DNA of 32,276 bases from IMG/VR virus record IMGVR_UViG_3300020055_000088, positions 1 through 32,276 of that record; one strand, 5' to 3'. The notes beneath the pieces were generated by a model. It did not search any database, had not been told where the DNA came from, and saw only the letters and a list, made by a program, of their open reading frames with translations. Below are positions 25,414 to 30,829 of the stretch, piece by piece; the first letter of the stretch is position 1, and every line of letters begins with the position of its first letter. The position numbers and the translations under genes are program-made. Source of the DNA: a virus.

Positions 25414-26322
25414 TTAGTCATCATTTGCAAGTTTAGCAAAGTAGGACAGGGTATCATCCTCGTCATCCTCTGAAACTGTAGTCTCAGCCTTTGACATCTG
25501 TGTTACCTTCTCCATGTAGTTATCATCAGCAGCGTCTCCAGTCTGACTAGAAATGCTTTCTGCTGTGCCTACCTTGGCACTGCTACCCAATACAAAGTCC
25601 AACTTCTTTTTGAGTTCGTCATAAGACTTGAAGTTGCTAGGATCTACAATAGCAGCTAACGAATGTTGCTGTCCCCAAATAGCCTCAATAGCTGAATCAT
25701 CATCTGCTACTGCTGAAGGAGCTGCAAACTCAGACTTGTCATAGTTACGATAACCTTCTACCTGACGAATCTTAAGTTTGAAGTTAGCACCATCCCAGAA
25801 GTCAAATGGATTCATTGGAGCCTCATCCTGAAACTCTGGCTGCATTGCGTCTTTGATCTTGTCAAAGATCTTCTTACCAAACTTGTATAAGAATACTTTA
25901 CCGTTGTTAGAAGGATTGCCTGAATCCTCAACAACAAGAATGTTTGCGTAATAAGAAAGCCTACGCTTCTGCTTGCGAGCAATCTCCTTGTTCGCTTCTA
26001 CGCCACTGTTCCACAGTTCAGAGTTTAGTTCTGAAACAGGGTCAGTTTGCTTGAGAGTAGTAAGTGAGTTTTCGATATACCACTTACCTGTAGGACCTTG
26101 AAAGCCGTGATTCCAAAGCTGAACCCAAGGCATATCTTCACCCTGAGGTGCTGGAAGAAAACGAATAACAGCGTATCCGTTGCCTGCTTGATCTACTGTG
26201 GGTTTCCACTCGTTTGAATCATCCTGACGCTGTTGTGGTGCATCAAGTTTTTCGACTTCCTTCATCAGTTGGTCGAAATTGCCACGAGCTTTGCGAAGGT
26301 CTGAAAGTGAATTGAACGACAT
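25414..26322 (-). CDS. 32: gp32 single-stranded DNA-binding protein
   Basis: 302 aa from the ATG at complement 26320-26322, which has an AAGGAG ribosome site 6 bases upstream (T4 gp32 is 301 aa). The frame is open 27 codons further, but that extension has no ribosome site. The OB-fold core is clear: WVQLWNHGFQGPTGKWYIEN, RLSYYANILVVEDSG, GKVFLYKFGKKIFDKIKDAM, NPFDFWDGANFKLKIRQVEG. The C-terminal tail is acidic (SEDDEDDTLSYFAKLANDD), as expected for the partner-binding tail. The three zinc-binding Cys of T4 gp32 are absent (DPVSEL in place of DSCPVC). Codon use is regular, suggesting high expression. It follows gp59 and gp33 as in T4. Confidence 0.93.
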   Translation of the reverse strand: MSFNSLSDLRKARGNFDQLMKEVEKLDAPQQRQDDSNEWKPTVDQAGNGYAVIRFLPAPQGEDMPWVQLWNHGFQGPTGKWYIENSLTTLKQTDPVSELNSELWNSGVEANKEIARKQKRRLSYYANILVVEDSGNPSNNGKVFLYKFGKKIFDKIKDAMQPEFQDEAPMNPFDFWDGANFKLKIRQVEGYRNYDKSEFAAPSAVADDDSAIEAIWGQQHSLAAIVDPSNFKSYDELKKKLDFVLGSSAKVGTAESISSQTGDAADDNYMEKVTQMSKAETTVSEDDEDDTLSYFAKLANDD

Positions 26323-26356
26323 ATGTTTCTCCTTATGTGCGATATATAGCGTTGTA

Positions 26357-26536
26357 TTAATGTGTTTGCGTTGTATTTGTTGTATATGTTTCGAGGACTT
26401 CATCCAGCTCTAAATCATCTAGATCCTCAATACTATTTATACGTCTTAGTTCCTGATCGAGTTGCCTCTCAGGATGTTCTTTTCCAACCCTATGAATTTT
26501 CTTTTCTTCAGGTTTTCTTTTTACTGATTTAGACAT
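26357..26536 (-). CDS. Small protein between gp59 and gp32 (59 aa)
   Basis: An ATG at complement 26534-26536 opens a 59-codon frame that overlaps the end of gene 59 by 16 bases and stops 34 bases before the gp32 start. The N-terminal half is very basic (MSKSVKRKPEEKKIHRVGKE) and the second half acidic (SIEDLDDLELDEVLETYT). The split-charge form and the position in the 33-59-32 replication cluster suggest a DNA- or gp32-contacting accessory protein, but the family is not recognised. A late box lies inside it. Confidence 0.6.
   Translation of the reverse strand: MSKSVKRKPEEKKIHRVGKEHPERQLDQELRRINSIEDLDDLELDEVLETYTTNTTQTH
26434..26441 (-). promoter_or_regulatory. T4-type late promoter box upstream of gene 32
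   Basis: The minus strand reads TATAAATAGTATTGAGG inside the 59-aa gene, about 110 bases upstream of the gp32 start. T4 gene 32 is also transcribed late from a nearby upstream late promoter, so this is a plausible functional site. Confidence 0.55.
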
Positions 26537-27105
26537 TGTGAAATTTTACCTTCAAATCTCTGTTTTACTTCATCTTTGTTTATTATAACAAAGGGTTTAT
26601 ACTTTTTTACTAGTAAACAAATGTGTTCCAATACAAAGTCACTAGCATAATCTTCAACAAAAGGATATAGTTTTTCCATAATAACAAGTGTTTCAAGTTG
26701 TATATCCCCACCCATGTACATCCTGAAGATTAGTGGGTGTTGCCCTTCCATACAAGACTTAATTTCATCCTTTTCCATCCTGAATAAGATATTATCTAAG
26801 TCTGTATCTAAAGTATACAACATTCTTTTACGTCTTGTCAAGTAGTTTTTGTAATTATCTACAAAATTACCTGTATAGATGTTGGCCGTATTATCGCCTG
26901 TGATAAAGTTGGCCACAAGAATGTTTATAACTTCTGTGCGTGTATAAGTGTTTGCTAACTTATACATATGTTGCGTGTCTTTTCGTTTCTCAAAAGAAGC
27001 TCTTAGGTTACCTATACGACCCTTAGTAACAGTAATATCATACTTAGGATCAGTAAAGTGCAACCGTAAAGCCGCATATAATTTGTAGACTTCAAAAGCA
27101 GTCAT
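26521..27105 (-). CDS. 59: gp59-like loader of the replicative helicase
   Basis: 194 aa (T4 gp59 is 217 aa). The N-terminal part matches the family pattern FEVYKLYAALRLHFTDPKYD, and then KRKDTQHMYKLANTY followed by a hydrophobic helix (INILVANFITGDN). It is basic and mainly helical, as gp59 is. In T4, gp59 binds forks and gp32 and loads the gp41 helicase. Its place between gp33 and gp32 is the T4 order. It starts in a TAATG junction with gp33, so the two are probably translated together. Confidence 0.85.
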   Translation of the reverse strand: MTAFEVYKLYAALRLHFTDPKYDITVTKGRIGNLRASFEKRKDTQHMYKLANTYTRTEVINILVANFITGDNTANIYTGNFVDNYKNYLTRRKRMLYTLDTDLDNILFRMEKDEIKSCMEGQHPLIFRMYMGGDIQLETLVIMEKLYPFVEDYASDFVLEHICLLVKKYKPFVIINKDEVKQRFEGKISQCLNQ

Positions 27106-27398
27106 TAGAAAGGTAATTTGTTACTCTTAACCTTAAGTAAATTCAAGTCTTGTGCTTCTGCTTCTAACTTAGACCTTAAACTATTATTGATAATTTTAGA
27201 AAGACTCTCTGCTTCAATTTCATGTTTTATACAATAGTCTATCAAAATATCCATACAAGAAGATTGAGTCCTTACTGCTGTTTGTTCTATGTGTTGAGAA
27301 AATTCAGCAGGTGTTCTAAATTGTTTTGTGATTAAAAATGTGTCAGTTGGTTTTTGTTTTTCTGCCATAAAATCGTTTGTAATAACTTCTAAGTTCAC
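27105..27398 (-). CDS. 33: gp33-like late transcription coactivator
   Basis: 97 aa from a GTG whose ribosome site GGAG overlaps the end of the hydrolase gene. An internal ATG (complement 27366-27368, MAEKQKPT) would give 87 aa and lacks a ribosome site. The core ITKQFRTPAEFSQHIEQTAV, then SCMDILIDYCIKHEIEAESL, then LRSKLEAEAQDLNLL matches small gp33 proteins of T4-like marine phages as I recall them. It ends in a short hydrophobic tip (NKLPF), where T4 gp33 binds the sliding clamp. gp33 links the host RNA polymerase and the late sigma gp55 to the clamp. The several TATAAATA boxes nearby fit its presence. Confidence 0.75.
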   Translation of the reverse strand: MNLEVITNDFMAEKQKPTDTFLITKQFRTPAEFSQHIEQTAVRTQSSCMDILIDYCIKHEIEAESLSKIINNSLRSKLEAEAQDLNLLKVKSNKLPF

Positions 27399-27986: not shown

Positions 27987-27994
27987 TATTTATA
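27987..27994 (-). promoter_or_regulatory. T4-type late promoter box for the hydrolase gene
   Basis: The minus strand reads TATAAATATTGAATCTAACG, followed by the GGAG ribosome site and the ATG at 27965. It begins directly after the stop codon of the acyl-CoA-synthetase gene, so the lytic enzyme has its own late start. Confidence 0.7.
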
Positions 27995-29365
27995 TTATAA
28001 CAGTTTTAATGCCTGTTTGTCAACCTTCCCAACAGAAGTCAATGGCAACTCATCTACATAGCGATATTGTTTCGGTACTTTAAAATCACCTAAATATTTT
28101 CGACAATAATTAACATAGTCTGCATTTTTGCCAACAATAAAAGCACAACCCACTTCACCCCACCTTTTATCTGGAATGCCAACGACAGCTGCCTGTTTGA
28201 CACTTGGATGGCTCATCAAAACACGTTCAATCTCCAATGGATAAACATTCTCTCCGCCCGATATAAACATATCTTTAACTCGACCACAAAGTATATATCT
28301 GTCACCTTCTTTTCGCACAGCATCTCCTGTGTGATACCAACTATTCTTTATGACTTTAGATGTTTCCTCTGGTTTCTGCCAATACTCACGCATCATATAA
28401 GGACTTCTTACTAAAAGTTCTCCTTCTTCAATTTTTACTTGTATTCCTGTAACGGGTTTGCCGTCTAATAAAACAGTACCACCACATTCAGTAATGCCTA
28501 CATTATTAAGAACTTTAGCATTTGGGAAAAACTTTCTTAATTTTTCTAATTGTTCTTCAGTAGGAGGTGCACCACCACTTTGATATATTTTAACCGAGCT
28601 TGTATCATAATTTAAAAATTCTTTGTAGTCTAATAACATTTGAGACATGGTAGGAACAACAATAAAAACATTTACTTTATGTTTCTCTATATTTTGTAGG
28701 AACTTTTCTGTTTCAAATTTATGCATTATAACAGAATGTGACTGTAACAAAGTTGAAGCAAAGAATCTATTATGAGAAGCAATATGAAACAATGGCAATG
28801 ATATTAAAGAAGTTTCATCACCATTAAGATTAAAAGTCAAATTAAAAGCCATAGAAGCAATATACATGGCTTTGTGAGTGATGACTGCTCCTTTAGGAGT
28901 TCCTGTTGTTCCTCCTGTATAAATTATACCGTAGATATCTTCGTTTATTCCCGGATGAAATTCAGGAATATCTGAAACAGATTCATAACAACCGTCAGCA
29001 ATATCATATAAAACCAAAGCAGGATCGCAATCCTGAATAATATCTTTTATTTCTCTTTCAGCTAATCTAAAATTAACAGGGACAATTATAGCATTAATAA
29101 AAGAGCAAGCAAACATAAGTTCAATATATTTGTTAGAGTTTTCTCCTATGAAAACAACTCTATCTTTAGGCGAAACACCTCTATCTTTTAGATAGCAAGA
29201 AAGAGAAACTACTCTATCATAGACCTGTTGCCAAGTATATGTAACATCTTCAAATGTTATTGCTGGTTTGTTGGGTGATAAATTTTTAGCTCTTTCTAAA
29301 AGATAAGCTACACTTAAATCACTAGGGGAATCTGACATTAGCATATAATTTTTCAAACCTTTCAT
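27995..29365 (-). CDS. AMP-forming acyl-CoA synthetase-like enzyme (ANL superfamily)
   Basis: 456 aa. All main ANL motifs are intact: A3 YTGGTTGTPKGAVITH (149-164), A5 NNVGITECGG (287-296, with Thr292-Glu293), A7 YHTGDAV (344-350), A8 GRVKDMFISGGENVYPLE (361-378), and A10 SVGKVDK with the catalytic Lys447. The VPVNFRLAEREI segment (95-106) is typical of fatty-acyl-CoA ligases. The enzyme would activate a carboxylic acid with ATP and join it to CoA. The substrate cannot be read from the sequence. It is shorter than most bacterial homologues (500-560 aa), mainly before motif A3. The start is uncertain: ATGs at 29365, 29344 and 29338 have weak ribosome sites, and the last overlaps the exonuclease gene by 17 bases. 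It has no signal peptide. Such a gene is unusual in a phage. Confidence 0.88.
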   Translation of the reverse strand: MKGLKNYMLMSDSPSDLSVAYLLERAKNLSPNKPAITFEDVTYTWQQVYDRVVSLSCYLKDRGVSPKDRVVFIGENSNKYIELMFACSFINAIIVPVNFRLAEREIKDIIQDCDPALVLYDIADGCYESVSDIPEFHPGINEDIYGIIYTGGTTGTPKGAVITHKAMYIASMAFNLTFNLNGDETSLISLPLFHIASHNRFFASTLLQSHSVIMHKFETEKFLQNIEKHKVNVFIVVPTMSQMLLDYKEFLNYDTSSVKIYQSGGAPPTEEQLEKLRKFFPNAKVLNNVGITECGGTVLLDGKPVTGIQVKIEEGELLVRSPYMMREYWQKPEETSKVIKNSWYHTGDAVRKEGDRYILCGRVKDMFISGGENVYPLEIERVLMSHPSVKQAAVVGIPDKRWGEVGCAFIVGKNADYVNYCRKYLGDFKVPKQYRYVDELPLTSVGKVDKQALKLL

Positions 29366-30002
29366 ACTCTAAACGTAAGTCTAATAATTTCTCTACATAA
29401 TTGTCACGTTTTTCAACAAAGACTTGAGGAAACTCATCCTCTACTGTTATAGCAACGACAATTTGCGGGACAGGGATACCTGTCATTTCTTCAAACATAA
29501 TAGCGTATGAAGTACATTGCATAAAGTAATTATCAATCCATTCTTTCTTTTTACTTTTGCGTGAGGTCTTAAAGTCAATAACTGACAGTTTACCTTCCCA
29601 TTCAGCAATACAATCCACACGCCCAGCCATTCTTAAATGGTCACTGTAAAGTGGGTCCTCGATTGCGTGAATGTTGTCTATGTTATTCAACACAGGGCGA
29701 AAGCGATCCCACATCTGTTTATCTAACAAACTGAGATTACTTGTATCAGTGTCTTTGTTCAGCAACACGTTCTCGCACAAGTCATGTATCTTTGTGCCTC
29801 TCGTAGCTGCTTGATTGCTGATTTTGTTAGCTTCTTCTTCACCGACACGTTCACGCCAGGCTTTAATAGCCTCTCTGGTGTGATATGACATAACGGTGGT
29901 AACTGAAGGATATAACTTTCCTTCAGGTGTACGATAATGCCTACCGAATTCGGTAACTTCTGCTTCGGGTATTTTTAAATCTATTTCTATTCTGTTAAAC
30001 AT
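29322..30002 (-). CDS. PD-(D/E)XK exonuclease (RecB/MGME1-like)
   Basis: 226 aa. The motif set is complete: YPSVTTVMSYH (31-41), RGTKIHDLCE (His73, Glu77), Glu115, GRVDCIAEW (Asp130), VIDFKTSRK (Asp143-x-Lys145), and a Gln162-x3-Tyr166 motif. This is the layout of RecB-type single-strand exonucleases, including mitochondrial MGME1, and is common in T4-like marine phages. It probably works in recombination or end processing, or in host DNA breakdown. The ATG overlaps the stop of the SDR-fold gene by one base (TAATG), and the downstream ligase gene overlaps its 3' end. Confidence 0.85.
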   Translation of the reverse strand: MFNRIEIDLKIPEAEVTEFGRHYRTPEGKLYPSVTTVMSYHTREAIKAWRERVGEEEANKISNQAATRGTKIHDLCENVLLNKDTDTSNLSLLDKQMWDRFRPVLNNIDNIHAIEDPLYSDHLRMAGRVDCIAEWEGKLSVIDFKTSRKSKKKEWIDNYFMQCTSYAIMFEEMTGIPVPQIVVAITVEDEFPQVFVEKRDNYVEKLLDLRLEYERFEKLYANVRFP

Positions 30003-30664
30003 TAGTCAGTGTAAATAAATTCTCCATTATTTATTCCCGTATTCATAATGGTTTCATAAATGTATTTGGTTACATTTTTAATTTGTTTTTTGTCGTTATA
30101 ATCAAAAATAGGCATCAAAGCTGCAAATTTTGCTTTCTTATCATTACATTTTGCAAAACCAAACATCATTTGATTTAGCGAAGCACACTCTGCTGCATAT
30201 CCGGTAGCGGAAGGATGGTGAGGCCTGGGAACTTCAAAACCCATGCCAGATGAGACATAAACTACGGAGCTAGTTTCATCCATTTTATCTAAAGCGTATA
30301 TTGTCATAAGATGAGGTATTATGACTTTTGTATTGTAGTTATCATAAAATTTTTCTAAGGTTTGGTGTAAAAATTTAAATTCTTTTTTTGCGCTACTAGT
30401 AAAATGATTATCTGTAGAAGGAAAATTATTTCCGCGTTGGTTAAAGAGTATTAGATCAATGTGCGTAATATCCTCAATCAAGGTTTCAAACTGTTTTACT
30501 GCTTCAACAGGGTCTGACCAATCAATGACTGTGGTATTTGGTTTACCATAATCTTTTTGGGATAAAAGGTGTACAGTATGTTTTTCTTTTATGAGCATAT
30601 CATAAAAGCCTTCCGCCCATGAACCGGGTCTACTGCATCCTACTAAAATTATTGTTTTACTCAT
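30002..30664 (-). CDS. SDR-fold protein with a degenerate active site
   Basis: 220 aa from the ATG at complement 30662-30664. The open frame runs further upstream, but that extension enters the tRNA gene and is rejected. The N-terminus TIILVGCSRPGSWAEGF is a Rossmann strand with a modified Gly-rich turn. IDLILFNQRG (69-78) takes the place of the NNAG region. VVYVSSGMGF (134-143) holds the Ser. GYAAECASL (155-163) holds Tyr156, but the YxxxK lysine is replaced by Cys160. It is therefore an SDR-like fold that is probably either non-catalytic or chemically altered. There is no strong ribosome site. It is the first of three coupled genes (SDR, exonuclease, acyl-CoA ligase). Confidence 0.65.
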   Translation of the reverse strand: MSKTIILVGCSRPGSWAEGFYDMLIKEKHTVHLLSQKDYGKPNTTVIDWSDPVEAVKQFETLIEDITHIDLILFNQRGNNFPSTDNHFTSSAKKEFKFLHQTLEKFYDNYNTKVIIPHLMTIYALDKMDETSSVVYVSSGMGFEVPRPHHPSATGYAAECASLNQMMFGFAKCNDKKAKFAALMPIFDYNDKKQIKNVTKYIYETIMNTGINNGEFIYTD

Positions 30665-30752
30665 ACAATTACTTATACAAATTAGTGCAACAGTTTTCCC
30701 AACCAATACAGTGTCCGGAATGTACTTGGGTGCGCGTTGCCCGCAGATTTTA

Positions 30753-30829
30753 TGGTACACCCTGCAGGAATCGAACCTGCAACCTACGGCTTAGAAGGCC
30801 GTTGCTCTATCCGATTGAGCTAAGGGTGC
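30753..30829 (-). tRNA. tRNA-Arg (anticodon UCU), CCA encoded
   Basis: The minus strand folds into a full cloverleaf. The acceptor is GCACCCT / AGGGTGT (one G-U pair at position 1). The D stem is GCTC/GAGC. The anticodon stem is ACGGC/GCCGT around the loop CTTCTAA, giving anticodon TCT. The T arm is GCAGG-TTCGATT-CCTGC. Discriminator A and the CCA end are encoded (30753-30755). It reads AGA, a very common Arg codon in this AT-rich phage. Its 5' end abuts the stop codon of the upstream 102-aa gene, so it must be cut out of a longer transcript. Confidence 0.97.

Follow-up and report, generated by a model that had tools for sequence, protein, structure and literature searches.

Most described phage metabolic genes serve photosynthesis, nucleotides or phosphate uptake. 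That phages encode ANL enzymes is not new, and structure libraries include phage proteins named Acs (A0A6J5L563). Genes of the fadD type have been reported from phages in PHA-producing cultures and are described, in the passages of PMC12013262 concerned, as transcribed and host-like. The fadD and acs genes on phage contigs (PMC12013262) and the ocean-virome fadL and fadB families (PMC4053976) represent virus-carried activation or uptake of fatty or organic acids, a trait shared with the ligase of the present DNA stretch (32,276 bases of an IMG/VR fragment, hereafter the window). In the relevant passages, the fadD of PMC12013262 resembled the host copy, whereas the window ligase is highly diverged, and its T4-like lineage does not figure in those passages of either source. 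New here is a diverged, compact and maintained ligase in a T4-like replication operon, with an altered A5 site.

The ligase frame and its motifs

The gene occupies positions 27995..29365 on the minus strand and runs from ATG to TAA with no internal stops. Pfam, alignment and AlphaFold identify its 456 aa product as an AMP-forming acyl-CoA ligase of the ANL superfamily. It contains the N-terminal AMP-binding domain (E 2.3e-65, 221 bits against a cut-off of 29.9, far beyond chance) and the C-terminal AMP-binding_C domain (E 9.8e-20, 72 bits against 24.5); its PHROGs matches are uncharacterised families only. The AlphaFold model (pLDDT 92.3, pTM 0.89) possesses the two-domain fold of the superfamily, with the best full-length superposition on MenE 5x8g/5x8f (TM 0.89-0.90, rmsd 2.2), both in thioester-forming conformations, and a TM of 0.89 to 4-chlorobenzoyl-CoA ligase 3cw9. 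The nearest sequences are feruloyl-CoA and fatty-acyl-CoA synthetases and the long-chain acyl-CoA ligase subfamily PRK06187 (NF004837). The profile search of ANL subfamilies and the tree suggested by the earlier note were both run: PRK06187 is nearest, but this best score of 362.6 bits falls short of the curated cut-off of 476. Scores lie under the cut-offs of all NCBIfam subfamilies, so that neither a subfamily nor a substrate is assigned. The careful tree gives the window pair a long branch (1.57) amid cellular proteins and leaves it without a supported partner.

The ligase retains every one of the 12 columns that are invariant in a 70-sequence alignment (Thr150, Gly152, Lys158, Gly290, Glu293, Asp348, Arg362, Gly371, Glu380, Pro431, Pro441 and Lys447), and none of the catalytic residues is missing, be it those of A3, the Thr and Glu of A5, the Asp of A7, the Arg of A8 or the Lys of A10. 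Motif A3 is intact (YTGGTTGTPKGA), with the P-loop IYTGGTTGTPKGA at residues 148-160 (28886..28924, minus strand, as are the following motifs). Equally intact are A4 (LPLFH), A7 (WYHTGDA, residues 343-349, 28319..28339), A8 with the hinge and the CoA-side loop (GRVKDMFISGGENVYPLEIE, residues 361-380, 28226..28285) and A10 with the catalytic Lys447 (LPLTSVGKVDK, residues 440-450, 28016..28048). Motif A5 (NNVGITECG, residues 287-295, 28481..28507) departs from the Y/F-G-x-T-E pattern: its aromatic position, Tyr in 56 and Phe in 12 of 68 relatives, other phage ligases included, is Val289 in both sublineages of the window phage, with Thr292 and Glu293 retained. Judged from the alignment, this is a departure at a single conserved site, and the defining domains and catalytic residues are not lost. 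The A5 aromatic residue of ANL enzymes stacks on the adenine of ATP; with Val289 in its place, ATP binding may be weaker and catalysis weakened in consequence.

The N-terminal domain lacks 29, 13 and 11 residues after residues 123, 301 and 312, respectively, which most relatives have, and the core from Asn98 to Lys447 measures 350 aa, a length below that of each of the 63 cellular homologues compared (376-428 aa). Thus, of the features put forward in the earlier note, the complete 456-aa ANL-type frame is upheld by the uninterrupted ORF with both Pfam domains, and the compact N-terminal domain by the three gaps and the short core. The statement that all ANL motifs are intact holds for A3, A7, A8 and A10 with Lys447 but fails at A5. 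Two residues of the helix following A4 are uncommon: Arg200, with Arg in 3 of 68 relatives, and His198, where Leu or Ile is commonest. If the numbering of 4-coumarate-CoA ligase is a guide, Arg200 could face the acyl pocket and favour a polar acid.

Genomic setting, recurrence and origin

The window contains T4-like genes for gp32, gp59, gp33, a marine T4-like exonuclease, and baseplate and tail proteins. Read along the minus strand from the right end, the order is a partial PhoH-like ORF, small ORFs, tRNA-Arg (TCT, 30753..30829), an SDR-like gene, the PD-(D/E)XK exonuclease of marine T4-like phages (phrog_298, 29322..30002), the ligase, a cell-wall hydrolase/endolysin (PF07486, 27402..27986, likely start ATG 27965), the late-transcription coactivator gp33 (27105..27398), the helicase loader gp59 (26521..27105) and the ssDNA-binding protein gp32 (25414..26403), all proteins from the exonuclease to gp32 except the ligase being named by profile matches, gp32 additionally by 53-58% identity to P-SSM2, HTVC008M and cyanophages. 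The ligase ATG lies within the 3' end of the exonuclease gene, an overlap of 44 nt suggesting that the two are translationally coupled. The interval from the ligase stop to the endolysin is occupied exactly by a T4-type late promoter sequence, TATAAATA (27987..27994, minus strand); such sequences occur nine times in the window against 4.6 expected by chance, and the position beside a gene start is a stronger point for the call than the count. This promoter allows late activation of the endolysin alone, which makes the ligase part of the upstream, replication-side unit. The exonuclease and gp33 genes are adjacent in P-HM2, with nothing between, and are separated by small hypothetical genes in HTVC008M; their gap is therefore a variable cargo site.

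The SDR-like gene beside tRNA-Arg (30002..30667, minus strand) encodes a possible degenerate short-chain-dehydrogenase-like protein of weak similarity (hhalign probability 5%), with no Pfam SDR match and a structure prediction of pLDDT 48. Of the Yxxx[K] pair it keeps the Tyr (YAAEC), the catalytic Lys being replaced by Cys. A longer start at 30760, running into the tRNA, is probably wrong. The gene is present in the window and in L002-L004 and cleanly absent in L005/L006, thus in one sublineage only, and a fixed ANL and SDR pair in the window is accordingly rejected. Neither the window nor the overlapping 37 kb contig of L004 showed any other fatty-acid gene. The latter, together with L197, carries six radical-SAM proteins in a row (L197:1512-8111, minus strand, with L004:132-1352), flanked downstream by a carbamoyltransferase and upstream by TauD and glycosyltransferase-like genes, the glycosyltransferase match being weak.

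The ligase recurs with the same junctions on five further IMG/VR contigs (L002-L006; six including the window), with 100% identity to the window copy in L002, L003 and L004 and 96% in L005 and L006. The 15.6 kb overlap of the window with the 37 kb contig is nearly identical past the contig end, with 12 mismatches beyond the first kilobase. Codon usage of the ligase matches that of the other phage genes (r 0.90, GC3 0.21). The two sublineages differ by 49 changes in the gene, about 28 of them synonymous where neutrality predicts a share of 21% (p 4e-8), and a dN/dS of 0.18 (dS 0.106, dN 0.019) indicates that the gene is maintained. As a metabolic gene flanked by phage genes and maintained by selection, it qualifies as an auxiliary metabolic gene of a T4-like phage. 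Since 37 of the 49 changes fall after codon 300, in the last third (codons 300-456), recombination has probably exchanged a portion of the gene.

Among the 50,697 annotated phage records of INPHARED nothing exceeds about 33% identity to the ligase (31% over longer stretches); the matches are contigs of bacterial appearance that carry a phage label, or faecal contigs, with no T4-like isolate among them, and the annotated T4-like phages of this collection lack the gene. Phage-named records such as OR846883, CAKLQH020000014 and MG543995 hold bacterial fadD, menE or entE, and several such records look like host contamination, which inflates counts of phage ANL genes. Pattern scans of IMG/VR returned 58 and 8 loci, of which the window lineage alone is close to the ligase, and a peptide-pattern genome scan found no relative. 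Cellular relatives come from several phyla and reach at most about 36% full-length identity (a broader scan and about 1,250 genomes); no protein outside the lineage, cellular or viral, exceeds that value in the samples searched. A recent copy of a sampled host gene is therefore rejected for the sample searched, these scans being samples that leave room for an unsampled donor. The same ceiling of identity marks the ligase, as far as sequence can tell, as an old, phage-adapted copy. The open-access literature yielded no paper on this gene.

These results bear out most of what the earlier note had said of the locus. The endolysin and the phrog_298 exonuclease flank the ligase, which places it between a hydrolase and an exonuclease of a T4-like phage as described, and its view that the gene is adapted, not newly copied from a host, agrees with the long branch, the phage-like codon usage and the compaction. 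A mis-assembled chimera of host and phage DNA, named there among the possible flaws, is excluded by the recurrence of the junctions on L002-L006.

Predicted activity and rival readings

The gene probably encodes a compact, phage-adapted AMP-forming acyl-CoA ligase serving as an auxiliary metabolic gene; activity, substrate, timing and benefit are inferred. The enzyme would bind ATP and a free host carboxylic acid, namely a fatty acid of medium or long chain, or else another acid of comparable size, aryl acids included, and convert them into the acyl-adenylate (acyl-AMP) in a first half-reaction. After rotation of the C-terminal domain, the second half-reaction would turn acyl-AMP into acyl-CoA, which, once released, would go into beta-oxidation (yielding energy, NADH and acetyl-CoA) or into the remodelling of lipids. 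Expression would coincide with that of the replication genes and action would precede lysis, because the gene belongs to the replication-side unit ahead of the late promoter of the endolysin. In phage-infected marine Pseudoalteromonas at low phosphate, fatty-acid transport and degradation proteins rise and lipids fall (PMC11170926); by analogy, an acid-activation step is plausibly useful to the phage during infection.

There is a modest chance that the ligase adenylates its acid and passes it to an acceptor other than CoA (a carrier protein, amine, protein or nucleic acid), e.g. in a modification pathway with the radical-SAM, carbamoyltransferase and TauD proteins of the same phage. ANL folds serve many acceptors, and the matches of the model include the amide synthetase McbA (TM 0.87) and the aryl-acid adenylating enzymes EntE/CahJ (TM 0.86-0.87). 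The phage possesses six radical-SAM proteins, the carbamoyltransferase, a TauD dioxygenase and the weak glycosyltransferase match, and the A5 change and loop deletions speak for an altered enzyme. However, the protein retains GGENVYP, the A8 loop of CoA ligases; its closest sequence matches are likewise CoA ligases, and neither a carrier protein nor an acyltransferase was seen beside the gene. It is rather unlikely that a weak or dead ANL protein is kept for binding, either to sense ATP, AMP or acyl-CoA or to sequester an acid: the lost A5 aromatic residue and the three shortened loops of the ATP-binding domain would suit such a protein, as would the neighbouring SDR-like gene, likewise without its catalytic Lys, but Thr150, Lys158, Thr292, Glu293, Asp348, Arg362 and Lys447 are kept in the second sublineage as well as in the first, and some of them should be missing from a dead enzyme. 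ANL genes are abundant in bacteria and phage-labelled INPHARED records contain bacterial ones, but a host gene mis-assembled onto phage DNA, or a recent hitch-hiker from a host, is hardly credible given the identical or 96% identical ligase with the same flanks on five further contigs, its phage-like codon usage and GC3, and cellular relatives of at most about 36% identity in the samples.

If the acyl-CoA ligase reading is true, some T4-like phages have control over the step through which organic or fatty acids enter use by the host, with a direct effect on carbon flow; by its predicted activity, this T4-like phage family of aquatic bacteria may make the host burn or redirect fatty or organic acids in infection. 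Unrelated ligases recur in other phages, which makes the idea testable across lineages.

Ligases of other phages and the nearest known enzymes

Three T4-like contigs (L021:5983-7425, L023 and L024) possess an ANL gene between gp62 and hsp20, a site different from that of the window ligase; their locus includes gp45 and gp44, and on L021 also gp43. A second group is formed by a cassette of consecutive ANL, SDR and BKACE (beta-keto acid cleavage enzyme, PF05853) genes on at least 11 viral contigs (L033:5899-9003; L191:2711-5873; L165:4908-7998; also L170, L171, L179, L180, L182, L184, L186 and L189). A scan with the BKACE enzyme returned 28 contigs, many of 60-207 kb, further ones carrying an SDR-BKACE pair or BKACE alone, and the BKACE motifs HxHxR and GxEDN are retained in nearly all. 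The cassette ANL proteins form a single virus-only clade (support 100/100). Solute-binding proteins of the TctC and DctP (TRAP) families are found near the cassette on some contigs (L189:6001-7901; L182:8838-9791; L175:5864-6754), and carboxylate uptake may be part of the same module. On L180 the cassette is followed by gp32 (73% to HTVC008M). No paper on the cassette was found within a limited coverage of the literature. Other viral contigs carry ANL genes in clusters of glycan or surface-polysaccharide type (L022:3593-8158, L025:4722-8477), with a PLP aminotransferase, ANL, and a dehydrogenase or SDR. In L061:965-2230 one ORF runs in frame from an ANL N-domain into the C-terminal part of gp44, either through recombination or as an assembly chimera.

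The window ligase has no BKACE beside it and falls outside the 100/100 clade. Common origin with the cassette ligases was favoured by a quick tree (SH-aLRT 88) and opposed by the careful tree with more cassette members, in which the window ligase groups neither with these nor with the ligases of L021, L023 and L024; the AU test does not reject a common clade with either (p 0.36 and 0.30, respectively). Both domains, taken separately, match cellular proteins better than cassette ligases. It is tentatively proposed that T4-like phages captured ANL ligases repeatedly, that a virus-only clade built a module for carboxylic-acid use, and that the window ligase is an independent, streamlined member that has its own substrate and a modified ATP site. 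The earlier view that such ligases lie outside the usual marine myovirus set thus stands for the annotated T4-like phages of INPHARED, but the window gene is not unique, given L021, L023, L024, the cassette and the phage fadD reported in PMC12013262. The cassette may merit more attention than the window ligase gene alone.

The ligases of L021, L023, L024 and the cassette are phage cargo like the window ligase, with 27-30% identity to it (at most 33% in the aligned part), but are inserted elsewhere or accompanied by other genes. B. subtilis MenE (o-succinylbenzoate-CoA ligase, 5x8f/5x8g), the best full-length superposition, is likewise a compact ANL enzyme; its identity to the window ligase is 26-27%, and menaquinone genes are not near the latter. 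Bacterial medium- and long-chain acyl-CoA ligases (PRK06187/FadD-like) and feruloyl-CoA synthetase (PDB 8weu/8wev) share both ANL domains and motifs A3, A4, A7, A8 and A10 with the window ligase at about 30% identity over the whole length. In contrast to these enzymes of about 500 aa, the window ligase comprises 456 aa, with three loop deletions and Val in A5, and unlike the bacterial PRK06187/FadD-like ligases it is phage-encoded and scores under all NCBIfam cut-offs.
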